Shown here: positions 16,182 through 56,210 of the stretch, piece after piece
Layout: the number at the start of each line of letters is the position of its first letter
How positions within the stretch are numbered: position 1 is the first letter of the stretch
Notes under the pieces: generated by a model
Told to the model about the DNA's origin: nothing
Database searches by the model: none
The model's input: only the letters and a program-made list of their open reading frames with translations
Source of the DNA: Heliocidaris erythrogramma
Lineage: Eukaryota > Echinodermata > Echinoidea > Camarodonta > Echinometridae
NCBI GenBank assembly: GCA_025617745.1
Contig: CM046861.1
Location: forward strand, 15,280,563-15,344,562
Direction: 5' to 3'
DNA: 64,000 nucleotides
Translations under genes and position numbers: made by a program

Positions 16182-16250
<69 letters not shown>
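16182..16250. repeat. (AT)n microsatellite
   Basis: Uninterrupted AT run of about 69 bases. A further (AT)n lies at 16424-16442, so the SINE palindrome between them entered an AT-rich microsatellite. Confidence 0.95.
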
Positions 16251-16253
<3 letters not shown>

Positions 16254-16398
16254 CATACATAAATTTATTCAATTTGTCTCCAACGGCCCACAAGGGGGTG
16301 ACACACGCTACTGCTGTGTGATAAGGTTGCCCGGGTGCTGTGAAAAAAAAATCACAGGCGGGCCGTTGGAGACAAATTGAATAAATTTATTTATGACA
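16251..16398. mobile_element. Second SINE fold-back (shortened palindrome)
   Basis: The left arm matches the - strand arm of the 3618 palindrome from TGTCAT to CACAGGCGG. The right arm is shortened, resuming at GCCGTTGG and ending TTATGACA. It is followed by ATTATCACCCGACGGATTAA, the same linker found after the palindrome at 3864, so this is a recurring structure. Confidence 0.75.
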
Positions 16399-16449
16399 TT
16401 ATCACCCGACGGATTAATTCAATATATATATATATATATATAATTATAT

Positions 16450-38200: not shown

Positions 38201-41200
38201 CCACTCATAGGTACACGCCATTGCCGACTGTGTAGTAACGCAGCCAACACACATCCCATACCTAAACTGCATCACTGTGCATTTTTGGCTATATTTAATT
38301 GAAACTCATATATTGCAGTTTACTTAAATCCAAATACTTATGTTGAATAATAGATGATTAAAACTTACCAGGTTGTTTTGTGACCTTTGAAGAGGGTTTC
38401 CTGAAATTTTAGGTCCTTTTTGTCGATAACTGCTATCGAGACTGTCCCGTCAGCATCCAGTTTGTATTTTTCACGATTATGATGAAGGGAGCCCTCAGCG
38501 CTCGTAGTAGTACCGGCGCGATCGGTTCGTCGATCTCCTACGAAGACCTGAAAGGGCCAAACTGACGACGTAAAAAAATTAAAAATATTACGTACGTACG
38601 TAATAATTACTACGTACGTACGTAATATTTTTTATTTTTTTACGTCGTCAGTTTGGCCCTTCCAGGTCTTCGTAGAATAGCTTGTGTGCGTAACATTCTG
38701 CGTACGTATCTACGGTGCGTAACCATGTAGAGCGGCCTCACTAGTGCGCAACATATTGAGAGCAGTCGTCATCCGTATGGAGGTGTAGGTAACAAGTACC
38801 AAAAAGAGGGCTGTAAATGTAAGTTTTTATAACTTTCTACATTTTGTATCTTAACGAACTGATAACTTAAAATCTAAAGAATGATACTTAAGTATCAGTT
38901 TGCCCACAAAAACCTCCATTTCAAACAAAATTACATCTGTATCCCCAATACCCAGTATACACACATGTATATGATCCTAATGGTCAATATGACCATTGCT
39001 TGCTGATGTGATGATGACCACTACCGGTATTCGTGGTGTGCGCCACTCATAGGTACACGCCATTGCCGACTGTGTAGGAATGCAGCCAACACACATCATA
39101 TTGACCATTAGGATCATATACATGTGTGTATACTGGGTATTGGGGATACAGATGTAATTTTGTTTGAAATGGAGGTTTTTGTGGGCAAACTGATACTTAA
39201 GTATCATTCTTTAGATTTTAAGTTATCAGTTCGTTAAGATACAAAATGTAGAAAGTTATAAAAACTTACATTTACAGCCCTCTTTTTGGTACTTGTTACC
39301 CACACCTCCATACGGATGACGACTGCTCTCAATATGTTGCGCACTAGTGAGGCCGCTCTACATGGTTACGCACCGTAGATACGTACGCAGAATGTTACGC
39401 ACACAAGCTATTCTACGAAGACCTGGAAGGGCCAAACTGACGACGTAAAAAAATAAAAAATATTATGTACGTACGTAATAATTACTACGTACGTACGTAA
39501 TATTTTTTATTTTTTTACGTCGTCAGTTTGGCCCTTTCAGGTCTTCGTAGGAGATCGACGAACCGATCGCGCCGGTACTACTACGAGCGCTGAGGGCTCC
39601 CTTCATCATAATCGTGAAAAATACAAACTGGATGCTGACGGGACAGTCTCGATAGCAGTTATCGACAAAAAGGACCCAAAATTTCAGGAAACCCTCTTCA
39701 AAGGTCACAAAACAACCTGGTAAGTTTTAATCATCTATTATTCAACATAAGTATATGAATTTAAGTAAACTGCAATATATGAGTTTCAATTAAATATAGC
39801 CAAAAATGCACAGTGATGCAGTTTAGGTATGGGATGTGTGTTGGCTGCGTTACTACACAGTCGGCAATGGCGTGTACCTATGAGCACTCATAGGTACATT
39901 CCTATACTTCGTGTGTATAATGTAGGCAGTCATACACCTCATCTTTTTAAAACACCACTGCACAAAAGTCACCAATATTCACTCAAAATCGGCATTTAAT
40001 TTTCAAAAACCGACCCCAAAATATCCAAGAAATACAATAAATTCAACTCACCAATGTTGGAAAAGATATTTACAAAAATGAAATCCGCAATTTACTGTTG
40101 ATTCTCGCGAAACGAGCTATCGGAGTCATTGTGTACATTTCCTGGTCGCCGCGGGCGCTGACATCTCCCCAAAAGAGTTTTGTCCTCAAAAATTCGGTCC
40201 CTATGGCGTACACGGAAAAGTTCCGATTTTCTGTGTGCGCTATCGTAAAGATCGATGTGCCCTTGCGATCCCGAGTTTCTTCGTGGACAAAAATTATATT
40301 GGCCGATTTTAGTCTAAGACATCGGCAGTTTGTAAACAACACGCGATCGCGAAACAAATCGGCGGGGATTTCTCCGGTTTTGGACAAGATTTTGACTTTG
40401 GATTTTGCTGTAAATATCAAAAGTTCTTCCTAACGGCCATTTGAGGTAGGAGTGAGATTTTTAAGGGCTGAATTTGAAAGCAAGTATTTAAAATATTTAT
40501 CTTATTTTCCCCCCCATACCTTTAGTACATGCAACAGAAAATACCAACTATTTTACAGAAATGTACCCGTGAGTGCCTATGAGTGGGAGTGCCTAACGAG
40601 GGGCTAACCCACATCAGCAAGCAATGGTCATATTGACCATTAGAATCATATACATGTGTGTATACTGGGTATTGGGGATACAGATGTAATTTTGTTTGAA
40701 ATTGATGTTTTTGTGGGCAAACTGATACTTAAGTATCATTCTTTAGATTTTAAGTTATCAGTTCGTTAAGATACAAAATGTAGAAAGTTATAAAAACTTA
40801 CATTTACAGCCCTCTTTTTGGTACTTGTTACCCACATCTCCATACGGATCACGACTGCTCTCAATAATGTTGCGCACTAGTGAGGCCGCTCTACATGGTT
40901 ACGCACCGTAGATACGTACGCAGAATGTTACGCACACAAGCTATTCTACGAAGACCTGCAAGGGCCAAACTGACGACGTAAAAAAATAAAAAATATTACG
41001 TACGTACGTAGTAATTATTAGTTACGTACGTACGTAATATTTTTTCTTTTTTTACGTCGTCAGTTTGGCCCTTTCAGGTCTTCGTAGGAGATCGACGAAC
41101 CCATCGCGCCGGTACTACTACGAGCGCTGAGGGCTCCCTTCATCATAATCGTGAAAAATACAAACTGGATGCTGACGGGACAGTCTCGATAGCAGTTATC

Positions 41201-44200
41201 GACAAAAAGGACCCAAAATTTCAGGAAACCCTCTTCAAAGATCACAAAACAACCTGGTAAGTTTTAATCATCTATTATTCAATATAATTCTTTGGATGTA
41301 AGTAAAATGTAATATATTATATTTAAGCCTGAGTCGAATCGATTGGTTAGCCGGTGTTCGATCAAAGACATCGACTCCCGAATACGTTTTGGCAAATTCG
41401 GTGCATCGATTTGTAGTCCGCCAGATTTTTGACTACCGTAGCCGCCATGAAAAAATCAAATAAAAAAAGAAACTCCGTAACGTACAGCATATATTATACT
41501 AGCAGAGAACGTGAAGGCGACTTCAAAGTTCAAACTGTTGGCTAACTTTCGCTAATTCGCTCGCGGAGGACGTCGCGCTTTACCTGTGCTTTCTCTATGG
41601 AAAAGTCGTTTTGTCGTTACGAACTGAAGTTTACGATAATTTTCGTGCACTCTCTCTGCATTGTCAATTTGACAATTGTATAACTGAACATGATAAATAC
41701 GGGCATGAGTACGAGTGTTCCTACTTAATTCGCAATAACTAATATCACACTCTCATCAAATTGGCAATTACTTCTGAATGATCTCTGAAGCTGAATGAAG
41801 TCGAGTCTATATTGAGCGACGAAAAGTTTATTTCGTATTGTTTTTTTTTTTTGGCATCGAACAAACGTGTTCCATTCAGCTCTCCAAAGACAAAGTAAGA
41901 TTATTAATTCTTTGAATTTGAATCATTGTCGGGTGTGTCGACAATGAGCATCGCTTCGTGCGACACTAGTGACATTTTAGCTAGCCATACGGACTAGAAA
42001 CTTAAGATTTTGGCTCGTCCGCTGTGATTTTTACTAGCCATTGGCTAGCGGGCTATCGTTAATTTCGAGCAGCGAGAGCCCATGCCCGCGATGCCAGCGG
42101 ACCGGTCATCGGTGCATGGTGCATACACTGCGTGCAACTGTGTGCAACTCTGTTTTCACCGCACATCATTTATCGATTAACCGGTATTCGATCGAATCAA
42201 AGCCGTCGAATCCCGGTTTATGAAATATTCGATATGACTCAGGCTTAATTATATTCAATTAAATATAGCCAAAAATGCACAGTGATGCAGTTTAGGTATG
42301 GGATGTGTGTTGGCTGCGGTACTACACAGTCGGCAATGGCGTGTACCTATGAGTGGGCTAACCGCCGACTTACTGCGGCAGCCCGAACACGTAGTGTTCG
42401 GGCTGCGATCAGCAGTCCTTTGATTGCTTGGATCTCTCTTAATTACAAGGTCGTTTGTCAAAATGAAAACCATGAAACATGACATTAATTGATTTTAGGC
42501 TACTTTAGGTACTTACAAAACTTAACGAATGACTGTTGTCTTTCTTTTCAATGAGGATGATACAAAAAAAGGCATATTTATCTCCAAGAAACTGTACTAA
42601 AAATTTCCGTAGGTCGGTGTTTTGCTTGCAATGCGCATGCGTCAGCAGCTCCACGATAATACACAGACAAGAAGGGAGGATTATGAATATTCATTAGACG
42701 AGTGGGCTCGAGAGATCGGCGGATCACGGTGGATATATGAATATTCATTATTCCTGTGACGAAAACTATGGCGTCATTGTAATAAATATTCATAGGCGCA
42801 TGCGCAAGTGCCTATTTTCGTTTCTGCTTCAACAACATGGCGAATGGGACTGATTTCGAAAATTGAGAGTAAAAAGTGACATTCATCGATTCTACACATT
42901 TTTTAGGAAAAGCTGATTTGCGGAAGGTCTGTTTAGGTTAGTGGCATCGTATATATGATACTTTAATTTTAAAAAATAACATATAATGCCATATTTTCAA
43001 TGGTTATTTGAACATTGGTAAATTGTGAGACCCACCGAATCGTACTGGTTTCACTCACTCATAGCTACATTCCTATACTTCGTGTGTATAATGTAGGCAG
43101 TCATACACCTCAACTTTTTAAAACACCACTGCACAAAAGTCACCAACATTCACTCAAAATCGGCATTTAATTTACAAAAACCGACCCCAAAATATTCAAG
43201 AAATACAATAAATTCAACTCACCGATGTTGGAAAATATATTTCAAAAAATGAAATCCGTAATTTACTCTCGATTCTCGCGAAACGAGCTATCGGAGTCAT
43301 TGTGTACATTTCCTTGTCGCCGCGGGCGCTGACATCTCCCCAAAAGAGTTTTGTCCTTAAAAATTCGGTCCCTATATGGCGTACACGGAAAAGTTACGAT
43401 TTTCTGTGTGCGCGATCGTAAAGACCGATGTGCGCTTGCGATCCCCGAGTTTTTCGTGGACAAAAAATTTATTGGCCGATTTTAGTCTAAGACATCGGCA
43501 GTATGTAAACAATACGCGATCGCGAAACAAATCGGCGGGGATTTCTCCGGTTTTGGACAAGATTTTGACTTTGGATTTTGCTGAAAATATCAAAAGTTCT
43601 TCCTAACGGCCATTTGATGTAGGAGTGAGATTTTTAAGGGCTGAATTTGAAAGCAAGGTATTTAAAATATTTATCTTATTTCTCCCCCATACCTTCAGTA
43701 CATGCGACAGAAAATACCAACTATTTTACAGAAATGTACCCGTGAGTGGTTTCAGAAGTCGAGTCTATATTGAGCGACGAAAAGTTTATTTCGTATTGTT
43801 TTTTTTTTTTGGCATCGAACAAACGTGTTCCATTCAGCTCTCCAAAGACAAAGTAAGATTATTAATTCTTTGAATTTGAATCATTGTCGGGTGTGTCGAC
43901 AATGAGCATCGCTTCGTGCGACACTAGTGACATTTTAGCTAGCCATACGGACTAGAAACTTAAGATTTTGGCTCGTCCGCTGTGATTTTTACTAGCCATT
44001 GGCTAGCGGGCTATCGTTAATTTCGAGCAGCGAGAGCCCATGCCCGCGATGCCAGCGGACCGGTCACCGGTGCATGGTGCATACACTGCGTGCAACTGTG
44101 TGCAACTCTGTTTTCACCGCACATCATTTATCGATTAACCGGTATTCGATCGAATCAAAGCCGTCGAATCCCGGTTTATGAAATATTCGATATGACTCAG

Positions 44201-47200
44201 GCTTAATTATATTCAATTAAAGATAGCCAAAAATGCACAGTGATGCAGTTTAGGTATGGGATGTGTGTTGGCTGCGGTACTACACAGTCGGCAATGGCGT
44301 GTACCTATGAGTGGGCTAACCGCCGACTTACTGCGGCAGCCCGAACACGTAGTGTTCGGGCTGCGATCAGCAGTCCTTTGATTGCTTGGATCTCTCTTAA
44401 TTACAAGGTCGTTTGTCAAAATGAAAACCATGAAACATGACATTAATTGATTTTAGGCTACTTTAGGTACTTACAAAACTTAACGATTGACTGTCGTCTT
44501 TCTTTTCAATGAGGATGATACAAAAAAAGGCATATTTATCTCCAAGAAACTGTACTAAAAATTTCCGTAGGTCGGTGTTTTGCTTGCAATGCGCATGCGT
44601 CAGCAGCTCCACGATAATACACAGACAAGAAGGGAGGATTATGAATATTCATTAGACGAGTGGGCTCGAGAGATCGGCGGATCACGGTGGATATATGAAT
44701 ATTCATTATTCCTGTGACGAAAACTATGGCGTCATTGTAATAAATATTCATAGGCGCATGCGCAAGTGCCTATTTTCGTTTCTGCTTCAACAACATGGCG
44801 AATGGGACTGATTTCGAAAATTGAGAGTAAAAAGTGACATTCATCGATTCTACACATTTTTTAGGAAAAGCTGATTTGCGGAAGGTCTGTTTAGGTTAGT
44901 GGCATCGTATATATGATACTTTAATTTAAAAAAATAACATATAATGCCGTATTTTCAATGGTTATTTGAACATTGGTAAATTGTGAGACCCACCGAATCG
45001 TACTGGTTTCACTCACTCATAGCTACATTCCTATACTTCGTGTGTATAATGTAGGCAGTCATACACCTCATCTTTTTAAAACACCACTGCAGTTGACTGC
45101 ACAAAAGTCACCAACATTCACTCAAAATCGGCATTTAATTTACAAAAACCGACCCCAAAATATTCAAGAAATACAATAAATTCAACTCACCGATGTTGGA
45201 AAATATATTTCAAAAAATGAAATCCGTAATTTACTCTCGATTCTCGCGAAACGAGCTATCGGAGTCATTGTGTACATTTCCTTGTCGCCGCGGGCGCTGA
45301 CATCTCCCCAAAAGAGTTTTGTCCTTAAAAATTCGGTCCCTATATGGCGTACACGGAAAAGTTACGATTTTCTGTGTGCGCGATCGTAAAGACCGATGTG
45401 CGCTTGCGATCCCGAGTTTTTCGTGGACAAAAAATTTATTGGCCGATTTTAGTCTAAGACATCGGCAGTATGTAAACAATACGCGATCGCGAAACAAATC
45501 GGCGGGGATTTCTCCGGTTTTGGACAAGATTTTGACTTTGGATTTTGCTGAAAATATCAAAAGTTCTTCCTAACGGCCATTTGATGTAGGAGTGAGATTT
45601 TTAAGGGCTGAATTTGAAAGCAAGGTATTTAAAATATTTATCTTATTTTTCCCCCATACCTTCAGTACATGCGACAGAAAATACCAACTATTTTACAGAA
45701 ATGTACCCGTGAGTGGTTTCACTCAGTCTCAGGACGCTGCCACTTCGTGGCAGCGTCCCGGGGCTAACCGCCGACATGCATACACATGTAGATGTACAAA
45801 GCACTATAGTAAATCTCTACTATTAAAGTACAGACAACTATAGGAAAAGACACAGACCACTTATATAGGAAAAGACGCAGCCAACCCACCGTAATTTACC
45901 GGCACCTAGACGAAGTAGCTTTGGTTACGGCGTAATGCTGAACGGTAGTTTGCTGACTGGTCGTTTCTATATCGGGTCGTGTCTTCATGCGCATATCTCC
46001 CGTGGCCCTCTCTTGTCTATCTATATATAGGTTCTCTGGCGTTCGTGCGTAGGCGCCGCTAATAAGAGACAACCCGCGTGCGCCCAACGCACGTACGTAA
46101 GGACCTGACCACTCTTTCCTATATTCCCCCCAACCATAAAAAATAAGGGAAATATAAAAGGATTAATCATCAATAATTATATAATTAGCCACAAATAATA
46201 TTTCATCAAAATAAATTTTATGGCACAATTTGGCCATTCTGAAATACCAAATAAATTAATTTATTCATCCGCGATCTTCCCAATCCCAAGACTAGAGGGG
46301 GGTCCAAAAGAGGTCAGCTAAGGGACACTCTCCACTTGGGGATGTATAATCTGGTCTAGTTCGGCCCGGTACATTGGGCAAACCTTCTCAGTCCGTCTTT
46401 CCCATAATATAATCCATAAAAAAGTCCCAAATTAAAGCAGGACTCTGTACTACATTATAAGAAAGAAAAACCTTAGACCACTCAGATACATGAAGAGGCC
46501 CCAACTTAATTCCTTTAATTTACCCCCACTAGTGGGAAAGGTCAAATGTTGGAAATAACTATAAATAATAGACTTGAGATTTGGGTTATATATATACAAA
46601 TGTATATTAACATACCATAACCCCAAAAATCTCATGGAAATTACCCGAGGATACCATACAGTTACAGAAAGGACAAAAACATCGATAGTCGCTCCTTCTG
46701 CATGGATAATGCAAATTAATTATCTACACTTACAGAAGGGACAAAAATACTTATCAATGCTCATTCCCTCTGCATGGGTGACCCCTACACATTCACCATG
46801 GAACCATTCGTCGCAACCATCACACTGAATCATGAAGGATCCATCGTCCGGTGCCCTGCAATAGCAGTATTTTTCCTTTCTCCAGTTTGGATTCGGAAGT
46901 TCACTTTGATCAGTGCATCTTTTAAGATGATCATGATTGACAGTAAGGACCTTATTCCTGTATACTACTCTGTATACAAAAGGTGTGTACCTTTTTACAA
47001 TTAGAGCAGGACCCTTCCAGGGAGATTGCAATTTTTTGCATTTTCCCTTGAGGGTCGCCATGTCTAGAAGATACACCCTATCCCCTTCCTTGAACTGACG
47101 TAAGTATACTTTTACGTCATAGTCTCGCTTCATCCATCGCTGCGTCGACCGGAGTGTATCTCTCGCAGCCTCATGGGCTTTACGAATATTCTCAGCCAAC

Positions 47201-50200
47201 TTCGCCGAATATTCGTCGAGAGAACGGTCAGGGACGGATGGGGGAAGAGGAAAAACCAGTTCCGCTGGTTGGTTGGTTTCACGCCCCAACATCAACTGAT
47301 TGGGCGTGAATCCCGTGCTGCGGTTGACAGTGGACCGAATGGCCCCAGCTATTTGAGCAAGGTTGTGATCCCACTGGTTCTGGGACTTCCCTAGGTAACA
47401 TCTTACCGCGTCCATTAACGTTCGATTGAAACGTTCGACTTGACCGTTAGCGGAAGGTCGGTACGGGGTAGTCCTAGCCTTGTGTATATGAAGGATCTTA
47501 CACATGTTCGCAAACAGCTTGCTTTCAAAATTTCTGCCCTGATCAGTAAATATTTGGAAAGGATAACCAAAACGACAGAAAAATTCACTGACTGCCGCGT
47601 GAGCGGTTACCTCAGCTGTCTGAGAGGGCAGGGGGACACATTCAACCCACTTGGTAAACTGGTCCACCATCATCAGGATGTACACATTCCCTTGTGAGGT
47701 TTTGGGTAATGGACCCATGAAGTCTAAATGTACACGCTCCATGGGGGCTCCCGCGTGATAGGTTATCATGGGGTGCTTCCCATACCTCACTGCCTTCTTG
47801 TTTCTGTTACAGGTGGCGCATCTTCTGATGAAGTCTTGAATATCTTTCGACATACCATACCAATAATACTTGGACTTCAGTTTACTCTTAGTGCGATTCA
47901 CCCCAGCATGAGCTGCGGAGGGAAGATCATGATTTAATCTGATCACCTCATTCCGCAGTGACTGTGGCACCACTAGATGGAGATTGTCATCTTCCTTCCT
48001 CCAGATGACACCATCTTTGATGACGAATAGCTCTCGGTTTATCCAGAGGTACTTTCCAGCGGGGTTCCATAAAAGAATGGTGCCCTCATCTGGTTCCTCT
48101 TTACTGACTAACCACCGACGCAAAGGTATCAGTTGATCATCGGCCTCTTGTTCTTTCTGGAGAAAGTCCCTGGAAGTGAGGTCGACGTCAGACTGGGGGT
48201 TGGCATTGTCAGTTGTTACACCATTGACCCTTAAAGAGATGGGACCATCCACTTGATCGATGTCTAAGTGAGTGATTAGGAGGTCCTCACTATCTCTCGG
48301 GGTAAGGGTAACTTCCGAGATCTTATTTTTCTGTGCCAGTTGGTTTACATTGTCTAAAGTATCCGAGAAGGGCGCCCAGTTCTCTCTGGATTTCATGCAG
48401 TATGAACAACCACCACAAGGCAAACTCTCGGGATCAATACCCAATCGGTAGTTTTCACAGGTGAAATCACCGTCGGGTATGCGAGATAATGCATCCGCAT
48501 TCTGGTGTTTTTTGCCGGGTCGGTGTTCAACTGTCATATCATATTGACCCAGTTCTTCGAGCCAGCGAGCGAGCTGCCCTTGAGGTTCTTTGAAGTTCAT
48601 TAACCACGTCAGACTTCCATGGTCCGTACGTACCGTGAAAGGCTTACCCAGGAGGTAATGCCTATACTGACGGGTAAATCTTACCACTGCCAGAAGTTCA
48701 CGTCGGGTAACACAGTAGCGTCGTTGTTCGGGGGCTAAGGAAAAACTGCCATAGGCAATAGTTCGCTCTTGACCCTCCTGAACCTGAGATAGTACAGCAC
48801 CGATAGCAGTGCCAGACGCATCGGTATCCAGAATAAACGGATCCACGGAGTTAGGCAGCGCAAGAACAGGGGCGGTGGTCATTAGTCTCTTGACTTCCTC
48901 AAAAACATTTTGATGCTTATCTTCCCAATGGAAGTCATTCTTACCCGTGAGGCCATATAACGGTCCTACTACTTGGGCATAGTCTTTAAGGAAGACTCGA
49001 TGATAATTAACAAGACCGAGGAACTGTTCCACCTCCTTAGTAGACCTAGGGGTTGGCCAGTCCATTACGGCTTTGATGTGTTCTTCCTTAAGATGCAGAC
49101 CATTTCCATCCACCTCTCTGCCTAGGAACTCTACCTGGCGTTGGAAAAAGGAACATTTCTTGGGCTTGAGTTTAAGTTTATAGTCCCTGAATCTTTCCAA
49201 CACCTGCCTGATATTACTGACATGGTCACTGAAAGAGGTACCAAGCACAACTACATCATCCAAGAAGGCTAAGGCAATGTCCCAATTCAATCCGCGGAGG
49301 ATGAGGTTCATTGCTCTAGAGAATGTAGCAGGGGCATTGCATAAACCAAAGCCCATACGCACAAACTCGTATAGCCCATATTTGGTTATAAATGCGGTCT
49401 TTTCACGGTCTCCTTTTCTGAGATTTATTTGCCAATAGGCAGAATTTGCATCTAGTTTAGAAAACCATGTGTTGCCGGCTAGAGTATCCAAACACTCTTC
49501 GATGCAGGGAAGAGGGTACACGTCCTTCTTTGTAACGGTGTTTAGCTTACGATAGTCTATGCACCATCGGACGCTACCATCTCGTTTCCTGATAAGCACT
49601 GGGGCTGATGCCCATTCTGACATCGAAGGTTGGATTACCCCGGCCGATAACATCTTGTTCAGGTGCGCTCGTTCCTCTTGAAGGAAATTCATAGGTGTGC
49701 GCCGCATCTTCTGTTTGATAGGGGCTGCACTACCTGTATCTATTGAATGGGTAATCTCTGTAAAGTTACCCAAATCGAATTCATCTTTGGCGAAGACGCA
49801 TTCAAACTCCAGTAACAGATCCTTCAGTACTCCTTGTTCTTCAGGAACTAAATGTGCAGAGGACCGCTCCCACAAATCCTGCAAATGAGGGGGGATATTG
49901 TCTTCTGCTAAGTTCACTTGATGGACCTGTACATTATCAGACATATCACTAGGGGAGGGTTGGATAACCGAAACTTCATATGCTTGTCCGATTATCTTAT
50001 CCCGTCTCCAACGTATGTGATTGTCTGTTAGATTTAGAGAATATATCTCAATGAGATCTTCTGGACGGTGCAAGGTCCTCGGAACGAATCCGATCAGACT
50101 CGCATCCGGCTCGACCAGGAACTGTTTTGAGGATGCAAAGGATTTAACTTTGCATATGACCCTTTTCACAGATCTTGGGGGGATAGTGACTGAGTCTGCA

Positions 50201-53200
50201 ACGATCACCTGGGCTGCTGCATCTCCGCCAAACGTCATTGGTATAACTTCACCCTGAATGGATAATGTGGAGCCTGGCATATCGATATGTGCACCTTGTT
50301 TATGGAGAAGATCTGCTCCCAACAACATATCATCATCAATTGGGGCCACATATATAAATTCATTTAACATATGTGTCCCTAGTGTCATTTGTACCGGTCC
50401 CACTATTATACCCTTCATTTTCATATCCCTCCCGGCAGCATTCAAAACAACAGTTTTAATAACTGGGGGAACGGGGTGAAGTGTCTGATAGACTCTATCG
50501 GACATGATAGTTACCTCTGCAGCGGTATCAACTATGGCACGAATCATCGTATCACCAATCGAGATGTTTATGCTAAAGATGGACGGTGAATTCATTCGGC
50601 AAACTACCACATCCGTGTCTAATTGGAAGTTTTTCTGAGGTGGTGGCCAAGGGGGTATCAGCCATGGACTGGGTTCCATTGGTGGCTCGGTCCCATCGGT
50701 ATTACAAGATGGTGAGAAATGTGGGAAGAGTTGCTTCTCACTGGAAGAAATGGTGGGAACCTTCCCCAGCATTCCTAATACACCATTGATGTCCTGACCA
50801 CCACCAGCCTGTTTGGATTCGTTGATGTTAGAGGTAACACAAGAGGAAACACTATCTACTCCAGTTTCCTGGAAAGGTGAATCCCTCTCTGATGCAACAG
50901 GGGAAATACCGGTCATCTCAGTCTCCTGAGAAGGCAAATCCCGTTCCGATGTAGCAGGGGAAACACCGATCATCCCAGTATCCGGGGAAGGTGAATCCTT
51001 TGGACACGTTGCAGCGTTATTTGAATCCAGAACAGGGCCGAGGTCCACATTTAATGGGATCGGGGCCGGACCTCCTCCTCCGATCCTGAGTCGTTTCCCT
51101 GTTCTTCATTGACAAAGGAAACAGTGGGCCTGGGTCCTCTCTCCGGACACTCCCTCTTAAAGTGCCCTGGCTTCCCGCAATGATAGCAGACATCATTCCG
51201 GCTGGGTGAACTGCTCCCTCGGGCAGGGGATACTCTGCTTCTCATGCGGGCCGGAGAAACCGCGAGTTTTTTTACACTCTCGGCTAGGCTTTGAACTGTC
51301 GCCTGCAAGGACCCTAGTGTCTCTAATTGTTTTAGCACTGTGTCCATTTTGCCCTCCAAAGACGAAACCCTCTTTTCCAGTGCATTAGTTGCTGGAGGGG
51401 TTGGGGGCGCACTGACTTTTCGGAACGTTGGGTCCAAGGGAGCCGCATCGGAATATGAAACTTGTTTCACCTCCTTCCTGGGCTTCCCATAAATGGCCCT
51501 ATGTGAATGCTGATACCACTTGACGAGATCAACAGCCTCTTCAACCGTTTTCGGTCTTGAGTTTAAGGCATGTTGACCTGCCTCTCTGTCAGCGGAGCCC
51601 TGACAGAAACGCATAACCACCTGTCGTTGAATGTATTCTTCAGGTAAATCTGGATACGCCTGTGCAGCCAAAGTCATTAGACGAGCAGCCCACTTCGCAC
51701 TGTTTTCGTCGGGGGTCTGCCTGGCGTAGGAGAAGTGCATTTGTGACACTTCTGGTAATTCGCGCAATGTGAAGCGCTTTTCAAGTTTGGCTACAAGAGT
51801 TTCATACGACACTTCGGGTTCGCGTTCCATTAAAGTGGTTAAGTATGTACTAGCTTCGCCCTCGAGGGTAAAACATAGATGAGTCCTCGATTGTCTAGAG
51901 TCCCACCTACTCTCACTGGCAAATAGCTTGAATTTAGTAATAAAAGCGTGCCAGTTTCCAGTCCCATTGAAAGTGATGGACTTGGGAAGAGAAACCAGTT
52001 TGGGTCTCTCCCCTTCCCTGATGCTAACACTCCTGGGTCTGGATGCTGCTGGGTGATGGGAAGCGGACACCGAGTCACGAGCTGATGTTTGAACTGTTCT
52101 GTTCACGGGGGGCGGTGATTCAAACGTCACACGATCGTGGCTTGATCGTCTTAACTCCCCTCTATGATCATACGATCTACGCGGGGATGATCTGCGATAA
52201 TCATCATCCCGCCTGTGATTATATGATCTACGTGGAGATGATCTATGATAATATTCCTCCCGTCTGCGATCATATCTGCGTGGAGAGTCATATCTATAGG
52301 ACATAAATCGTTGATCACACCTATATCGCCGAGGGGAGTCGTAACGTCCTCTAGAATCGCTACGATCTTCCCGATATCGGCGTGGGGAATCATAGTGTCG
52401 ATCCCTACTGTGATCATACCGATCTGTACTAATATATCGGTCTCTCCTATAATTCCGGGGTGAGCGATGGCGACTCTCTGGATGGTCTGACCGGGGGGAG
52501 CCATAGCGGTCCCATCGACGGTCTGATCCACCCCTGATCTCAGAATGATCGCGGTGCTTAGAACGGCTATTCCGCGACCTATTAGGGGGAGAATCCGAGT
52601 CCAAACCGTCACCCTCATGATACTTTGTTTTTCGAGAGACCCTCTGAGAAGAAGATGGAATCTTCCGCGGCGAGGGCCAAGTCACCGCTTTGTCCTTCGG
52701 ATTGGCAGGAGAGTTTTGTTCAGTCAACTTTGACTGCTTTCCTTCTTCTCCCACCACTTTTGACTGCTTACCCTCTTCTCCCACTGCTTTTGCGACATGT
52801 GGTGGTAACGAATCTTTAGGGTATGCATCAAAGGGATATGGAGAGAGGTTGCCTTTGTTGTCCGATGAGGTCCGCGGTAAAGACTCGCTAGCCCCAGCAG
52901 TGGACAGGTCATCAGACATGTCAGATGTACTTAACCTTTGCGTAAATGATGCAAAGTCAAAATACTCAGCCAATTCAGAGGGATTCCTCAAATGGGGAAT
53001 ATCCCTTAATGATTCAGCAGTGATATCGCTGGCCTCCCGAAGGGCTAGGATCCTTTCCGCGGTTGTCCTGCCAATACCAGGGACTGACAATAACTCTTCC
53101 GGCTCACAAAAATTTATCCGTATCTTGGACATAATTGTAAGCCTATAACTTAAGCAAACACCGGTGTGTTAATTAATCTATAAACGCAAGAAGTAAATAT

Positions 53201-56200
53201 ACAAAATAGAAACGAGTATATAAATTGCAAACACGAATATACTGTGTCAGTATACTAAGTATATTTAATACGCGCCAGATACAAAATACTAATTACGTAT
53301 CCCAATGCACAATAGATATGAAGCACGGAGATACGCCTGAAGGGCGTCAAAATATATTACAAATCGACATAGAGAGCGAACAAGCAGAAATTCATACACT
53401 CATACGAAATACAAGTATCGGTATATACTATAATAACTTATTACTAAGTATACTTACTCCCTGCTTGGTATACTTAAAAAAAAACAAAATCAGGACGAAG
53501 AAGAAAATGTTGCTCAACTGAAACCACCTATGAATAAACTATATGAACGACTCGGATCTTACGAGCATATAAAATTAAACAAGTATTATAAGCAAAGAAG
53601 AGAGCGTATATAATTGGCACATGTATAATTTACGCAACAGTTGCTAAGCCAGTAAGCTATTATTGCTCGATGATGCGCCAACAATTACCAGCAACGAGCA
53701 ATGAACAAGCGCAATTGACTATACAGACATCCAAACAAGAATACATTAAAGAATTGATGTCAGTATAAATGAACACAATGTTCACTTTCGCTGATTAGGT
53801 CACGACGTAGCTATTCTGCCACATTCAGACCAAAAACAATCAGCTTGCTTGAATTATATTTCTACAATTTATTAATTCTACACAAAATATAAATATTAAT
53901 GCTCAGAAATACTATCTTGCGCCAATTCTGAATCAATTCGGCTGACTGAAATCAGTCTTCCGAAATATCAATGTCCACGCTAAATATAATTTGGTGAACT
54001 TACACTACGCCTTAATTTTAATTGGTTTAATACCGTTGCTAAATAAAATAAAACTGTATACATAGCACGAAGCGAGAAGCCCAACACTTAAATTTGTAAG
54101 TGGGCCACACCACTATCACAACAATTTCCAAAGCGAAATACAATCAACAACGCATATAAACTAAGAGAGTAAGGCAGAAAATCAACTCAAATATAGAAAC
54201 CAAATAATTCAAACGGCAATAAAATAATTCAAGTAATTAAATGCGGTAACCTGTAAAACGGCAATAAGGAAATTCACTTTTCCAATTCACTCTTCCCTCC
54301 CCACTGACAAATTGGCGCTTCAAAATCGAGACACCAAAAATATATCGGAGGAATAAAATTACATCGCTAAATCACTCAAAATAAATATCAAACTTCAAAA
54401 CGGGTTTATTAATTGAAATAATCGACTTGCCCCTCTTAAATCCGTCACCGAAAGCCAAATTCAGCTAGGCATTTACGATTTGGTAAAAACCAATTAATTT
54501 TCCCGCCAAAATGTGGCTCCAAAATTCCAAGGCGCGGTAACACAAAAGGTTAGGCGCGGCACACAAAAGAACCCAATTTGCAAATAAATAGCGTGTACGG
54601 CACTCATAGGTACATTCCTATACTTCGTGTGTATAATGTAGGCAGTCATACACCTCATCTTTTTAAAACACCACTGCACAAAAGTCACCAATATTCACTC
54701 AAAATCGGCATTTAATTTTCAAAAACCGACCCCAAAATATCCAAGAAATACAATAAATTCAACTCACCAATGTTGGAAAAGATATTTACAAAAATGAAAT
54801 CCGCAATTTACTGTTGATTCTCGCGAAACGAGCTATCGGAGTCATTGTGTACATTTCCTGGTCGCCGCGGGCGCTGACATCTCCCCAAAAGAGTTTTGTC
54901 CTCAAAAATTCGGTCCCTATGGCGTACACGGAAAAGTTCCGATTTTCTGTGTGCGCGATCGTAAAGATCGATGTGCCCTTGCGATCCCGAGTTTCTTCGT
55001 GGACAAAAATTATATTGGCCGATTTTAGTCTAAGACATCGGCAGTTTGTAAACAACACGCGATCGCGAAACAAATCGGCGGGGATTTCTCCGGTTTTGGA
55101 CAAGATTTTGACTTTGGATTTTGCTGTAAATATCAAAAGTTCTTCCTAACGGCCATTTGAGGTAGGAGTGAGATTTTTAAGGGCTGGATTTGAAAGCAAG
55201 TATTTAAAATATTTATCTTATTTTCCCCCCCATACCTTTAGTACATGCCACAGAAAATACCAACTATTTTACAGAAATGTACCCGGGAGTGGTGTACGGC
55301 GTCCCTAGTTCCCGCCACGCCCGAATTCAAATTAGAGCTTTAAAATACCTAAATTACCTAGTAAACTACGGAAAAACTTAATTAAATAGCTTAAATATAC
55401 TGCAAATCTTAAAATACAGACAAAAAATAAACGTTACTCCACTTACAACCCTTCAATCACGTCTCACAGACGCGTCGAGGTTGCCATTCTCGCAACGTTG
55501 CCAGTAAAGTTAATTACAAGTATAATGCTGCAACTTTAAATAACTTAATTACACATAATCAGCGCAGCTTCGAAAAATAGTCGCAGCGCCATTTATAGTA
55601 AATCTCTACTATTAAAGTACAGACAACTATAGGAAAAGACACAGACCACTTATATAGGAAAAGACGCAGCCAACCCACCGTAATTTACCGGCACCTAGAC
55701 GAAGTAGCTTTGGTTACGGCGTAATGCTGAACGGTAGTTTGCTGACTGGTCGTTTCTATATCGGGTCGTGTCTTCATGCGCATATCTCCCGTGGCCCTCT
55801 CTTGTCTATCTATATATAGGTTCTCTGGCGTTCGTGCGTAGGCGCCGCTAATAAGAGACAACCCGCGTGCGCCCAACGCACGTACGTAAGGACCTGACCA
55901 CTCTTTCCTATAGTTCTTTATAAAGAACCTCGCCACTCATACACCAGCATTTCTACATACAATGTGTAATTTTTTTAAATAAAAACACCCTCAGACCTGC
56001 ACACTCGGAAATTCATTGATCTCAACACTTTCAAACACCACTAATCGAGACATAAAAGTGAAGGGATGGGACCAGGCAAAAATGAATGAACAGGGATGAC
56101 ATACCATGACATACGAGCAAAGTTATTGACTATATGACAAAGTTAAATGAATTAAAAAGTTAATTACAAACCTCTGCTTCGATTTCAGCAATCCTCTCTA

Positions 56201-56210
56201 AAATTCCCAT
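23045..56210 (-). CDS. DRG1: Developmentally regulated GTP-binding protein 1 (11 coding exons, complete)
   Basis: OBG-family translation factor GTPase that acts with DFRP1/ZC3H15 on ribosomes. Exons in transcript order: 56172-56210, 33355-33478, 31845-31889, 31184-31314, 30179-30248, 29304-29403, 27736-27888, 26371-26473, 25396-25508, 24112-24234, 23045-23144. All introns are GT-AG with matching phases, giving 366 residues (human protein 367). Visible motifs: N-terminal helical 'MARTQKNKA', a Gly-rich hinge after LITPK, P-loop GFPSVGKS (70-77), switch [12 protein letters not shown] (116-119), NKID (247-250), SAH, and a C-terminal TGS domain (about 291-366) ending [10 protein letters not shown]. 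Residues needed for GTP binding are intact. Exon 1 encodes only 13 residues and is separated by a 22.7-kb intron full of mobile elements. The start is the first ATG of exon 1. Confidence 0.97.
23217..23262. repeat. (TG)n microsatellite in DRG1 intron 10
   Basis: TG run directly upstream of the last exon on the transcribed strand (reads as (CA)n). Confidence 0.9.
23545..23660. mobile_element. MITE family K, copy 1 (telomere-like core)
   Basis: Begins 'ACATATGCTCTCGCGACAATT' and contains GGTTACGGTTAGGGTTACGG. Related to the elements at about 31557-31770 and 58795-59228 by end sequence and CCCTAA/TTAGGG core. Right boundary uncertain. Confidence 0.5.
24112..24234 (-). CDS. DRG1: DRG1 exon 10 (TGS domain)
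   Basis: Encodes [20 protein letters not shown] through ILKELK; acceptor TTTCATCAG, donor GTAAGA. Confidence 0.95.
24500..24860 (+). mobile_element. MITE family E, copy 2
   Basis: Starts TTAAAGATAAAGCCGAG after an AT-rich flank and ends CCCAAAACTCAACCTTCTCT. About 360 bp, in DRG1 intron 9. Confidence 0.7.
25396..25508 (-). CDS. DRG1: DRG1 exon 9
   Basis: Encodes [20 protein letters not shown] through YLSLIR; acceptor CGACTCCAG, donor GTAAGT. Confidence 0.95.
26371..26473 (-). CDS. DRG1: DRG1 exon 8 (NKID)
   Basis: Encodes [20 protein letters not shown] and [14 protein letters not shown]; acceptor GATTCAG, donor GTAAGC. Confidence 0.95.
27432..27569. mobile_element. MITE family G, copy 2
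   Basis: Starts GGGCCCTGTTTCATAAAACT, ends TTGATGAAACGCTCCCC; internal GCATCTGATTGGCTGAGAGC (CCAAT on the other strand). In DRG1 intron 7. Confidence 0.65.
27736..27888 (-). CDS. DRG1: DRG1 exon 7
   Basis: Encodes [20 protein letters not shown] through KIHNADITL; acceptor TTTGCAG, donor GTAGGC. Confidence 0.95.
27967..28354 (-). mobile_element. MITE family E, copy 3 (inverted)
   Basis: Reverse orientation: AGAAGGTATAAATTCTGG at the left and CCGGAACTCAACTTTATCTT at the right. A truncated fourth copy (about 28738-28893) follows in direct orientation. Confidence 0.65.
29304..29403 (-). CDS. DRG1: DRG1 exon 6
   Basis: Encodes [20 protein letters not shown] through EGFGI; acceptor TTCCCAG, donor GTTTGT. 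Confidence 0.95.
29580..29765. repeat. TTGTCC-phrase repeat in DRG1 intron 5
   Basis: Short motifs GTTGTCC, GGGGCAAATTA, GTTGTCCTAGG, CTTGTCC and GTTGTCC recur every 20-40 bp, a degenerate subterminal-repeat style seen in some non-autonomous transposons. Boundaries not defined. Confidence 0.4.
30179..30248 (-). CDS. DRG1: DRG1 exon 5
   Basis: Encodes [20 protein letters not shown] then VIA; DxxG motif present. Acceptor GTTTCAG, donor GTGAAT. Confidence 0.95.
31184..31314 (-). CDS. DRG1: DRG1 exon 4 (P-loop)
   Basis: Encodes [20 protein letters not shown] through YKGAKIQ; acceptor TTTGGTAG, donor GTAGGT. Confidence 0.97.
31557..31770. mobile_element. MITE family K, copy 2 (telomere-like core)
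   Basis: Contains TAACCCTAACCCTAACCCTG and 'CTAACCCTAAGCCTAACCC' between end-like sequences 'ACATACTCTATACTCCAGC' and 'GGAGCTCAATTGTTGTTGAG'. In DRG1 intron 3. Confidence 0.5.
31845..31889 (-). CDS. DRG1: DRG1 exon 3
   Basis: 45-bp exon encoding [14 protein letters not shown] between CTCAACAG and GTAAGA; it leads into the P-loop. Confidence 0.94.
32071..32974. mobile_element. TTAA-flanked MITE, 904 bp
   Basis: TTAA at 32067-32070 and 32975-32978 bounds inverted ends AGGAGAATTAACC and GGTTAATTCTCCT. The inverted match continues in diverged form (AAAGGTGTTATTTATTCC / AAAGGTGTAATATATTCC). A second inner inverted pair GGGGGCTGCCATTTTT is at 32239 and 32812. TTAA duplication is the piggyBac-superfamily hallmark. 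No transposase ORF. In DRG1 intron 2. Confidence 0.7.
33355..33478 (-). CDS. DRG1: DRG1 exon 2
   Basis: Acceptor TTTATTTTCAG; encodes [20 protein letters not shown] onward and the poly-Gly hinge; donor GTGGGT. Confidence 0.95.
33950..34930. mobile_element. TIR transposon (non-autonomous), 981 bp, with subterminal TGCGTCA clusters
   Basis: 41-bp terminal inverted repeats with one mismatch, starting ATGCACCTATCAATTG and ATGCACTTATCAATTG. GGTGCGTCA-type motifs cluster inside both ends (four on the left to about 34115, five on the right from about 34734). The central part (34140-34730) is GC-richer with CpG-containing stretches and a TGACGTCA site. No transposase ORF. In DRG1 intron 1. Confidence 0.8.
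35520..35975 (-). mobile_element. hAT-like MITE C, diverged inverted copy (C1)
   Basis: Reverse-complement relative of the later C copies: 'GATGTCAGCGCTCACAGCGATC', 'AAATGCCGATTTTGAGTGAA' and 'ACTTTTGTGCAGTGGTGTTT' are recognisable with many changes. Ends not clear; an older copy. Confidence 0.6.
36140..36905 (+). mobile_element. Repeat B, diverged copy (B1)
   Basis: Shares order of blocks with 42356-43055 and 44314-45013: 'GACTTACTGCGGCAGCC', a short GAACGTGTAGCGTTC hairpin, 'TGAATATTCAT' motifs, 'GCATGCGCAAGTGCC', 'CAACAACATGGCGAATGG' and 'AGTGGTTTCACTCAG'. Confidence 0.65.
37494..38162 (+). mobile_element. hAT-like MITE C, copy 2 (right end lost)
   Basis: Starts CACTCATAGCTACATTCCT and follows the family consensus until 'AATACCAACTATTTTTGC', where the terminal inverted repeat is missing and element A1 sequence begins shortly after. 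Confidence 0.75.
38538..38675. repeat. 138-bp palindromic module H in element A (copy 1)
   Basis: Runs from CTACGAAGACCTG to CAGGTCTTCGTAG with TACGTACGTACGTAAT in both arms; nearly self-complementary. Sister copies at 39413-39550 and 40946-41087. Confidence 0.85.
39413..39550. repeat. 138-bp palindromic module H (copy 2)
   Basis: As copy 1, in the right arm of the inverted repeat. Confidence 0.85.
39885..40575 (+). mobile_element. hAT-like MITE C, copy 3 (691 bp, intact ends, 8-bp TSD)
   Basis: Ends CACTCATAGGTACATT and, reverse-complemented, CACTCACGGGTACATT. Flanked by CCTATGAG at 39877-39884 and 40576-40583. It inserted into the end of element A2. Encodes no recognisable transposase; open frames in it are shared with C6 but match nothing I know. 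Confidence 0.9.
40605..42355 (+). mobile_element. Element A, copy 3, interrupted by a TTAA element
   Basis: Direct-orientation relative of 39096-39884, beginning near 'CACATCAGCAAGCAATGGTC' and ending GGCGTGTACCTATGAGTG. It carries module H (40946-41087) and is split at 41327-42244 by a separate insertion. Left limit approximate. Confidence 0.75.
41327..42244. mobile_element. TTAA-flanked MITE D, 918 bp, inside element A3
   Basis: TTAA at 41323-41326 and 42245-42248; terminal inverted repeats GCCTGAGTC/GACTCAGGC extend in diverged form (GAATCGATTGGTTAGCCGG versus GATTAACCGGTATTCGATC on the other end). Uninterrupted A copies supply an approximate empty site. TTAA target suggests the piggyBac superfamily. 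No transposase ORF. Confidence 0.8.
42356..43055 (+). mobile_element. Repeat B, copy 2 (in first tandem unit)
   Basis: Begins GGGCTAACCGCCGACTTACT, has a CGAACACGTAGTGTTCG hairpin, GCGCATGCGCA at 42797-42807 and CAACAACATGGCGAATGGG near 42830. Its far end is interrupted by MITE C at GTTTCACT. Confidence 0.65.
43056..43748 (+). mobile_element. hAT-like MITE C, copy 4
   Basis: Left flank GTTTCACT (43048-43055); right flank reads GTTTCA and then hits the tandem-duplication junction. Ends CACTCATAGCTACATT and CGTGAGTG. Confidence 0.88.
44314..45013 (+). mobile_element. Repeat B, copy 3 (in second tandem unit)
   Basis: Near-identical to 42356-43055, same hairpin, GCATGCGC and ATGGCGAATGG blocks; followed by MITE C copy 5 and then the resumed B end (TCAGGACGCTGCCAC, about 45726). 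Confidence 0.65.
45014..45715 (+). mobile_element. hAT-like MITE C, copy 5 (8-bp TSD)
   Basis: Flanked by GTTTCACT at 45006-45013 and 45716-45723. Carries a 10-bp extra segment near 45090 relative to copy 4. Confidence 0.9.
45805..46123 (-). repeat. 3' LTR of the Gypsy element (319 bp)
   Basis: Direct copy of 55594-55912. On the element strand it runs TATAGGAAAG...TTTACTATA and contains CTATATATAG and TATATAAG, possible TATA boxes. The PPT abuts its start. Confidence 0.93.
46124..46131 (-). other. Polypurine tract (PPT)
   Basis: GGGGGGAA on the element strand, directly adjacent to the first base of the 3' LTR, as required for plus-strand priming. Confidence 0.75.
46720..51048 (-). CDS. pol: Gypsy Pol polyprotein: protease, reverse transcriptase, RNase H, integrase, PHD finger
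   Basis: 1442 residues counted from GTG at 51048; the frame is -1 to gag, so translation is expected by frameshift rather than from its own start. Order: N-terminal part with three diverged ~20-residue ETG/SERD repeats (about 20-70); aspartic protease about 155-265 with DTA at 174-176; RT about 440-645 with FLDD at 595-598; RNase H with DTDASG 741-746, E784, D809; integrase zinc site H1040/H1047/C1077/C1080; catalytic D1109, D1169, E1205 (35 residues between the last two); GPY/F-like module about 1340-1378; PHD finger 1394-1441. All catalytic residues are present and there is no stop. A PHD tail in place of the chromodomain known from chromoviruses is the odd point. Confidence 0.96.
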   Translation of the reverse strand: MDLGPVLDSNNAATCPKDSPSPDTGMIGVSPATSERDLPSQETEMTGISPVASERDSPFQETGVDSVSSCVTSNINESKQAGGGQDINGVLGMLGKVPTISSSEKQLFPHFSPSCNTDGTEPPMEPSPWLIPPWPPPQKNFQLDTDVVVCRMNSPSIFSINISIGDTMIRAIVDTAAEVTIMSDRVYQTLHPVPPVIKTVVLNAAGRDMKMKGIIVGPVQMTLGTHMLNEFIYVAPIDDDMLLGADLLHKQGAHIDMPGSTLSIQGEVIPMTFGGDAAAQVIVADSVTIPPRSVKRVICKVKSFASSKQFLVEPDASLIGFVPRTLHRPEDLIEIYSLNLTDNHIRWRRDKIIGQAYEVSVIQPSPSDMSDNVQVHQVNLAEDNIPPHLQDLWERSSAHLVPEEQGVLKDLLLEFECVFAKDEFDLGNFTEITHSIDTGSAAPIKQKMRRTPMNFLQEERAHLNKMLSAGVIQPSMSEWASAPVLIRKRDGSVRWCIDYRKLNTVTKKDVYPLPCIEECLDTLAGNTWFSKLDANSAYWQINLRKGDREKTAFITKYGLYEFVRMGFGLCNAPATFSRAMNLILRGLNWDIALAFLDDVVVLGTSFSDHVSNIRQVLERFRDYKLKLKPKKCSFFQRQVEFLGREVDGNGLHLKEEHIKAVMDWPTPRSTKEVEQFLGLVNYHRVFLKDYAQVVGPLYGLTGKNDFHWEDKHQNVFEEVKRLMTTAPVLALPNSVDPFILDTDASGTAIGAVLSQVQEGQERTIAYGSFSLAPEQRRYCVTRRELLAVVRFTRQYRHYLLGKPFTVRTDHGSLTWLMNFKEPQGQLARWLEELGQYDMTVEHRPGKKHQNADALSRIPDGDFTCENYRLGIDPESLPCGGCSYCMKSRENWAPFSDTLDNVNQLAQKNKISEVTLTPRDSEDLLITHLDIDQVDGPISLRVNGVTTDNANPQSDVDLTSRDFLQKEQEADDQLIPLRRWLVSKEEPDEGTILLWNPAGKYLWINRELFVIKDGVIWRKEDDNLHLVVPQSLRNEVIRLNHDLPSAAHAGVNRTKSKLKSKYYWYGMSKDIQDFIRRCATCNRNKKAVRYGKHPMITYHAGAPMERVHLDFMGPLPKTSQGNVYILMMVDQFTKWVECVPLPSQTAEVTAHAAVSEFFCRFGYPFQIFTDQGRNFESKLFANMCKILHIHKARTTPYRPSANGQVERFNRTLMDAVRCYLGKSQNQWDHNLAQIAGAIRSTVNRSTGFTPNQLMLGRETNQPAELVFPLPPSVPDRSLDEYSAKLAENIRKAHEAARDTLRSTQRWMKRDYDVKVYLRQFKEGDRVYLLDMATLKGKCKKLQSPWKGPALIVKRYTPFVYRVVYRNKVLTVNHDHLKRCTDQSELPNPNWRKEKYCYCRAPDDGSFMIQCDGCDEWFHGECVGVTHAEGMSIDKYFCPFCKCR
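46726..46869 (-). other. PHD-finger coding segment at the integrase C-terminus
   Basis: Residues 1394-1441 of Pol. Cys4-His-Cys3 spacing is complete: C1395-x-C1397, C1409-x2-C1412, H1417-x2-C1420, C1436-x2-C1439. '[19 protein letters not shown]' has the Met and Trp (W1415) positions of H3K4me3-binding aromatic cages, close to the PHDs of PHF8/PHF2 and CFP1. Domain seen; ligand inferred. Confidence 0.92.
51051..53132 (-). CDS. gag: Gypsy Gag with helix-hairpin-helix, RS-like region and CCHC zinc knuckle
   Basis: 693 residues from ATG 53132 to TAA 51051. Residues 5-35 contain '[20 protein letters not shown]', a ComEA/RuvA-type helix-hairpin-helix, an unusual start for Gag. About 183-332 is Arg/Ser/Tyr/Asp-rich with repeated YDSPRRY, like an RS domain. 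About 385-550 is the retrotransposon Gag capsid region ('[20 protein letters not shown]' onward). A predicted coiled coil spans 583-622, and a CX2CX4HX4C nucleic-acid binding knuckle C649-C652-H657-C662. The protein should package element RNA. The frame is intact. Confidence 0.94.
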   Translation of the reverse strand: MSKIRINFCEPEELLSVPGIGRTTAERILALREASDITAESLRDIPHLRNPSELAEYFDFASFTQRLSTSDMSDDLSTAGASESLPRTSSDNKGNLSPYPFDAYPKDSLPPHVAKAVGEEGKQSKVVGEEGKQSKLTEQNSPANPKDKAVTWPSPRKIPSSSQRVSRKTKYHEGDGLDSDSPPNRSRNSRSKHRDHSEIRGGSDRRWDRYGSPRSDHPESRHRSPRNYRRDRYISTDRYDHSRDRHYDSPRRYREDRSDSRGRYDSPRRYRCDQRFMSYRYDSPRRYDRRREEYYHRSSPRRSYNHRRDDDYRRSSPRRSYDHRGELRRSSHDRVTFESPPPVNRTVQTSARDSVSASHHPAASRPRSVSIREGERPKLVSLPKSITFNGTGNWHAFITKFKLFASESRWDSRQSRTHLCFTLEGEASTYLTTLMEREPEVSYETLVAKLEKRFTLRELPEVSQMHFSYARQTPDENSAKWAARLMTLAAQAYPDLPEEYIQRQVVMRFCQGSADREAGQHALNSRPKTVEEAVDLVKWYQHSHRAIYGKPRKEVKQVSYSDAAPLDPTFRKVSAPPTPPATNALEKRVSSLEGKMDTVLKQLETLGSLQATVQSLAESVKKLAVSPARMRSRVSPARGSSSPSRNDVCYHCGKPGHFKRECPERGPRPTVSFVNEEQGNDSGSEEEVRPRSH
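51057..51099 (-). promoter_or_regulatory. -1 ribosomal frameshift signal between gag and pol
   Basis: Slippery heptamer GGGAAAC (51099-51093) sits in the correct gag register (G GGA AAC), followed by a 6-nt spacer and a hairpin with a perfect 7-bp stem GGATCGG/CCGATCC (51086-51057). Pol is open in the -1 frame from just before this site; the stop TGA upstream in that frame fixes the overlap. Matches the retroviral -1 frameshift architecture. Confidence 0.85.
54601..55291 (+). mobile_element. hAT-like MITE C, copy 6, nested in the Gypsy leader (8-bp TSD)
   Basis: 691 bp flanked by GTGTACGG at 54593-54600 and 55292-55299. Nearly identical to copy 3 (39885-40575), including a shared 116-codon - strand frame with identical translation. 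It must have inserted after (or into the parent of) the Gypsy copy, so the MITE family was active recently. Confidence 0.92.
55574..55591 (-). other. Primer binding site (PBS)
   Basis: Starts TGGCGCTGCGAC two bases after the 5' LTR, TGG being complementary to a tRNA 3' CCA. Which tRNA is used is unknown. Confidence 0.65.
55594..55912 (-). repeat. 5' LTR of the Gypsy element (319 bp)
   Basis: Direct copy of 45805-46123 at a constant offset of 9789 bp, so no indels; I saw no substitutions. Confidence 0.93.
56172..56210 (-). CDS. DRG1: DRG1 exon 1 (coding part)
   Basis: Encodes [13 protein letters not shown] and ends at donor GTTTGT with phase 0. It matches the N-terminus of DRG1 proteins. Exon 2 also begins with an ATG codon in frame, so a protein from that start is conceivable. 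Confidence 0.88.

Follow-up and report, generated by a model that had tools for sequence, protein, structure and literature searches.

A Gypsy retrotransposon lineage with a PHD finger on its integrase, a candidate reader of active chromatin

Introduction

What is a PHD finger doing at the end of a retrotransposon integrase, and does it have anything to do with the place where the element landed? The question is posed by a Ty3/Gypsy element in the first intron of DRG1, in a stretch of 64,000 nucleotides from Heliocidaris erythrogramma (hereafter the window, whose positions are used throughout). The damage that a retroelement does to its host is set by the choice of integration site. H3K4me3 marks the starts of active genes, and the mark read by chromodomains belongs to silent chromatin; a histone-mark reader carried in the integrase of a whole lineage, if true, would amount to a simple rule opposite to the one that chromodomains follow. 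According to the available part of one source (PMC3656877), a chromodomain allows a Gypsy integrase to be targeted to histone modifications, as in MAGGY, and Tf1 and Ty3 target promoters. The original prediction for the DRG1 element was that the integrase tail is a PHD finger of the H3K4me3-binding type, and that this finger may tether integration to promoters.

A young element in DRG1 intron 1

The element occupies 45805–55912 on the minus strand and follows the Ty3/Gypsy order: protease, reverse transcriptase (RT), RNase H and integrase, flanked by a pair of 319-bp LTRs (3′ LTR, 45805–46123; 5′ LTR, 55594–55912) that align without a difference (319/319 bases). The LTR ends, TATA...TATA, were set by sister copies, which ruled out TG..CA ends and also a reading of TATA as the target duplication: the sister copies have separate 4-bp duplications. 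Just inside the LTRs, and on the same strand, lie a putative polypurine tract, GGGGGGAA (46124–46131), adjoining the 3′ LTR, and a putative primer binding site, TGGCGCTGCGAC... (55574–55591), adjoining the 5′ LTR. Gag (693 aa; 51051–53132) has an N-terminal-proximal helix-hairpin-helix and a CCHC knuckle. In Pol (1442 aa; 46720–51048), a Pfam scan finds protease, RT (residues 486–644; 49117–49593), RNase H, the integrase H2C2 and rve domains (the latter the catalytic core; together residues 1027–1198, 47455–47970) and a PHD finger (residues 1394–1439; 46732–46869), to which the final 49 residues of Pol are given over. The Gag helix-hairpin-helix (53043–53120; PF00633, E 1e-6) is a motif that, to our knowledge, is unusual in a Gag; a relative in the protein database (P0034) matches PF12836 in a fused frame. 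No Rfam family was matched across 34000–58000, and a viral-contig scan confirmed no relatives. The five LTR pairs that were compared are 98.1–100% identical, so the copies are young; the window holds one such young Ty3/Gypsy LTR retrotransposon, a member of an invertebrate lineage.

DRG1 is transcribed from the same strand as the element. Its first exon (56172–56210) has the ATG at 56210, the second lies at approximately 33380–33481, and further exons follow down to 23048, where the last one was matched; all exons past the first were called by tblastn with a human DRG1 query. Intron 1 is thus bounded at ~22.7 kb, and the 5′ LTR edge (55912) falls 259 bp into it and 298 bp from the ATG. Both distances had been given correctly in the original prediction, which nevertheless drew the feature on to 56210, the ATG of DRG1; the element itself stops at 55912.

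Can this one insertion bear witness to targeting? The window copy lacks a target-site duplication: GAAC borders it at one end and GTGC at the other. Perfect 4-bp duplications flank six of six further insertions in the family (ACAC, ATAC, GAAC, ATCT, GTAC and ATAC). Loss of the duplication by mutation is unlikely because the LTRs are identical, and the mismatch at the junctions possibly reflects recombination between two copies, an integration that formed a deletion or a fault of assembly. Since its junctions are mismatched and it has also lost an open reading frame that sister copies possess (ORF3, described below), the window copy is a poor single witness.

The surroundings are themselves rich in repeats. 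Several copies of a ~690-bp repeat fill DRG1 intron 1 (35600–45720), and a further copy, the 691-bp insertion at 54601–55291 (no strand assigned), sits in the leader of the element, between two 8-bp duplications GTGTACGG at 54593–54600 and 55292–55299. The insertion is missing in the leaders of four sister copies, which rules it out as a piece of the LTR or of the element. The ends of the repeat are inverted and resemble CACTCATAGGTACATTCC and GGTACATTTC.., another 8-bp duplication, GTTTCACT, surrounds the copy at 45014–45715, and the leader copy is 99.4% identical to 39884–40575. The repeat has hopped into the leader of the element, and its features suggest a non-autonomous hAT-type transposon. 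Beside the element, the intron also holds a ~1.96-kb unit present twice, head-to-tail and 99% identical (41797–45721). Elsewhere in the window, 3946–4018 matches tRNA-Thr (AGT) and lies within short inverted and direct repeats (3600–4150 and 16190–16430) that are perhaps tRNA-derived.

The integrase PHD finger

A complete Cys4-His-Cys3 PHD finger at the end of Pol had been predicted, and it is confirmed: residues 1395–1439 match PF00628 (E 1.4e-9), and all eight zinc ligands (C1395, C1397, C1409, C1412, H1417, C1420, C1436 and C1439) are present. There is no chromodomain in Pol (Pfam scan, E 0.01); the PHD is found there instead. In an alignment to PHD fingers from the PDB, Y1394, M1406 and W1415 occupy presumed cage positions, which we take to be the positions that cage H3K4me3, as in CFP1, DIDO and PHF8. 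The likeness to PHF8 and CFP1 at the Met and Trp positions, also part of the original prediction, extends well beyond this copy: among 47 gap-free PHDs, the Trp is kept in 47/47 and the Met in 46/47, which makes them the top two of 38 non-zinc positions. The first cage position is Tyr or Phe in 45 of the 47, and the fourth varies (Asp in 28, Trp in 7, Cys in 4, Tyr in 3 and His in 2). The alignment omits four sequences: P0025, in which the last cysteine pair is altered, P0050, which is one residue longer, P0036, which is partial, and P0066.

What would such a finger bind? The closest PDB sequence is CFP1 (E 1.2e-15), followed by DIDO1, PHF2, BPTF and PHF8. The integrase tail, modeled by AlphaFold from 24 sequences, reaches 10-residue mean pLDDT values of 84–95 from residue 181 onward, the stretch taken up by the PHD. 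Foldseek superposes this part on the fingers of BPTF, PPS, DIDO, PHF2 and TAF3, several of which were solved with H3K4me3; the tail model is matched to the Ty3 and PFV integrases as well. In its nearest relatives, by sequence and by fold, and in its conserved cage, the finger is thus what the label "H3K4me3-type" had claimed; the binding of H3 that the label also implies is putative, and the resemblance suggests that the integrase PHD may bind H3K4me3.

A different ligand is conceivable: unmodified H3, another state of H3 or a non-histone tail. Structures of the PHF2 PHD with the VRK1 N-terminus (7m10 and 8f8y) are among the nearest matches, and plant EBS and SHL, with H3K27me3, are matched too, over long alignments with high rmsd. 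However, the closest matches, CFP1, DIDO, BPTF and PPS, were solved with H3K4me3, and the Trp and Met of the cage are conserved; another ligand therefore seems to us improbable.

Spread and descent of the fusion

Is the finger peculiar to this copy, a prospect that the original prediction itself had raised? A private fusion is ruled out on two grounds: (i) PHD and integrase core occur together in 50 of 67 protein-database hits, a set in which PHD bearers are over-represented because the query contained the PHD; and (ii) searched with the 87-residue integrase tail, the host genome (1.06 Gb in 26 contigs) yields at least 150 matches, the scoring having covered 150 of 280 candidates. A 51st protein with PF00628 (P0066) comes without an integrase, and a few of the genomic matches span only part of the PHD. 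The hits with named sources come from Lytechinus pictus (81% over the tail), Acanthaster planci, Ostrea edulis, Nucella lapillus and Haliotis rufescens; most of the 67 bear no species name. The fusion is common to many elements, in a lineage that is present in echinoderms and molluscs.

The protein database already displays this fusion, through Pfam domains computed in advance. In the literature retrieved by PHD terms, covered as titles and the starts of abstracts, no integrase-PHD Gypsy lineage is reported; the available part of the main text of a survey of LTR retroelement markers (PMC2774666) mentions neither PHD nor TatD, and that of PMC2577118 does not mention PHD.

A tree of 65 Pol proteins contains a main PHD clade of 49 members (support 0.91). 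Two of these members (P0040 and P0052) have no PHD at their ends; P0048 has one. Three distant PHD bearers (P0049–P0051) join PHD-less elements, and because this grouping is weak (support 0.48), a single gain followed by losses and two separate gains both fit.

Might the PHD be nothing but a fragment of a host gene, carried passively and without function? Some cases would fit: the finger is missing or its ligands are altered in a few relatives (P0025, P0040 and P0052), and of 20 host loci read at the DNA level, 18 have the PHD pattern and two (L007 and L008) lack it in intact form. Yet the PHD is strongly conserved across divergent elements, and in comparisons of four other loci with the window family its pN is low (0.14–0.16) against a saturated pS (0.83–1.02). 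Conservation and pN/pS largely refute a passive fragment, an origin to which we give hardly any credence.

A TatD-type nuclease as third open reading frame

The lineage holds a second unexpected part, a TatD nuclease on an LTR retrotransposon. In four sister copies (C1, C2, C10 and C11a), ~1.2 kb of additional sequence separates the pol stop from the 3′ LTR. It holds ORF3, whose open frames measure 410, 431 and 431 aa in three sister copies (400 aa in one copy when counted from the first ATG); C2 has the frame split in two. ORF3 matches PF01026 in three sister copies (E 9.4e-31, 9.8e-31 and 2.4e-30), a search of the PDB leads to YcfH and TatD, and the metal-site motifs DSHFH, ELGFD, HLRG, HLHSF and ETDSPH are present. 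There is no env after pol: the frame that sister copies have in that place is TatD, which rules it out as env, and no other long ORF was found on the + strand. A link to human TATDN2 was dropped, as an identity of 26–32% is too weak. The window copy has lost ORF3 through a ~1.2-kb deletion, whose junction, located by comparison with sister copies, lies at 46649–46662 on the minus strand.

How widely is TatD associated with the integrase-PHD fusion? Two other host families have it at the same place: locus L011 (E 9.6e-26) and a copy on C12, for which the genome match reaches 1.3e-34 and the piece cut from it, at 1.1e-5, stays under the curated cut-off. Further TatD motifs occur at L060, and one Acanthaster gene model fuses integrase, PHD and TatD. 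The host genome has at least 149 TatD matches (150 of 207 candidates were scored). In 90 of the 150 listed integrase-PHD tails, a TatD match follows within 4.5 kb downstream on the same strand, against 0.05 expected, and one further pair lies within 5 kb in another arrangement. Since pairs with integrase-PHD take up 94 of the 149 listed TatD matches, the TatD gene families found in annotations of invertebrate genomes may be genes of mobile elements. Between families, the TatD part has a pN of 0.40 vs a pS of 0.72 over 195 codons. The third ORF of two loci from related families, L012 and L009, has an N-terminal part that looks C2H2-like by eye; that of L012 matches no Pfam zinc finger.

The association is not universal. 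Up to 60 of the 150 listed tails have no scored TatD, an upper bound that includes the window copy and a short form of a related family, in which the LTR comes ~0.9 kb after the PHD. Because tails without a scored TatD exist, the window copy among them, ORF3 seems dispensable in cis.

Insertion sites and targeting

If the PHD favors active promoters, do other copies lie at gene starts? Seven other copies of the family were inspected, with shorter fragments on C2, C9 and C17 left out. Coding segments around them were called by a small codon score that was trained only on DRG1 and the genes of the element, and the sensitivity of these calls is therefore low. The sites are mixed. At C1, a predicted first coding exon, which shares the orientation of the element and has no Pfam match, lies ~1.2 kb downstream of the 3′ LTR edge. 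The C2 copy is 0.7 kb from an exon that apparently starts at a splice acceptor, the first exon not being found. C11a sits inside an NLR-type locus: a NACHT exon (PF05729, E 1e-16) is 1.5 kb away on one side, and exons that weakly resemble LRRs (E 0.037) lie on the other. The C10 copy is inserted within a copy of the ~690-bp repeat, with the 4-bp duplication ATAC (L023/L024; C10:48940295-48951268), and a solo LTR, C11b and C11c have only weak coding segments nearby. At L022 (2528-7144), 2.2 kb from a sister copy, there is also a different Gypsy-type ORF in which, by eye, integrase precedes reverse transcriptase, a Gmr1-like order.

By these low-sensitivity calls, made without random controls, one of the seven copies is near a predicted gene start (~1.2–1.3 kb). 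Such a count is unremarkable (P about 0.37) if the regions up to 1.25 kb from gene starts make up ~6% of the genome (a hand estimate that assumes 27,000 genes). A promoter-like GC or CpG mark was considered and dropped: in 15 flanks of eight insertion sites, inspected by eye, there is no consistent peak of either. The copies are clustered: among 97 of the 150 listed integrase-PHD copies, those on ten contigs of known length, eight pairs lie within 100 kb of each other vs 1.7 expected, a result equaled in one of 1000 shuffles. Clustering fits refuges as well as targets.

Does the finger then serve a different step? It could be a working reader of the H3 tail that acts in nucleosome docking, in nuclear retention or in the activity of new copies, with the DRG1 site a matter of chance. 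No promoter rule emerges from the sister insertions that were inspected, DRG1 is a single case and copies cluster, all of which would agree with such a role; but the C-terminus of the integrase is where other Gypsy elements have their targeting module (PMC3656877, in its available part), and on balance we find a role confined to another step rather unlikely. Of the promoter tether that had been predicted, then, the reader-like PHD stands, and the promoter targeting itself is neither demonstrated nor refuted, with only one of seven other copies near a predicted start. A promoter-only rule is unlikely given the mixed sites; a mild bias may exist, and the position in DRG1 counts as n=1.

The best explanation, for and against which we find the balance even, is a Gypsy lineage whose integrase is tethered to active chromatin by a PHD of the H3K4me3-reader type and which has a TatD ORF3 as an accessory. 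The PHD would bind the tail of histone H3, with a preference for H3K4me3, and would keep the pre-integration complex on active chromatin in the 5′ parts of genes, as chromodomains do on other marks; ORF3 would process nucleic-acid intermediates of replication, without being strictly required in cis. A more far-reaching version is tentative, and we think it possible rather than probable: in this Gypsy lineage of echinoderms and molluscs, an H3K4me3 reader would have replaced the chromodomain, the echinoderm members (those of the host and, by one gene model, of a sea star) would have a TatD of their own, and the cDNA, processed by TatD, would be integrated near active starts, opposite to what chromoviruses do. 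The papers covered here do not describe such a set of parts.

Comparison with known systems

With chromoviruses such as MAGGY, the element has in common the Ty3/Gypsy order of pol and, putatively, a histone-mark reader at the C-terminus of the integrase (PMC3656877 and PMC2774666, in their available parts); it differs in having a PHD rather than a chromodomain, and in the mark that this reader is predicted to recognize, H3K4me3. Tf1 and Ty3 are Gypsy elements as well, and their integration at gene starts (PMC3656877, in its available part) matches what is proposed here; by contrast, a promoter rule in the window family is unlikely to be absolute, and the proposed tether is a reader of a histone mark. 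A combination of Gypsy-like integrase and PHD is also known from a DNA transposon, Ginger1-9_HM, one of 16 Ginger1 families in the table of the source (PMC2836005, in its available part). Its integrase-related transposase likewise has a C-terminal PHD, but it is a cut-and-paste transposon with Ulp1 and PHD and has neither RT nor LTRs.

The two unusual parts of the lineage have cellular counterparts. The PHD resembles those of CFP1, DIDO1, PHF2, BPTF and PHF8 in zinc ligands, in the Trp and Met of the cage and in fold; unlike them, it is carried on a retrotransposon integrase, its fourth cage position is mostly Asp, and its binding is putative. ORF3 of the sister copies resembles YcfH and TatD in a lengthwise match to PF01026 and in the motifs of the metal site, and differs from them in being encoded by an LTR retrotransposon and in its proline- and arginine-rich N-terminal part.
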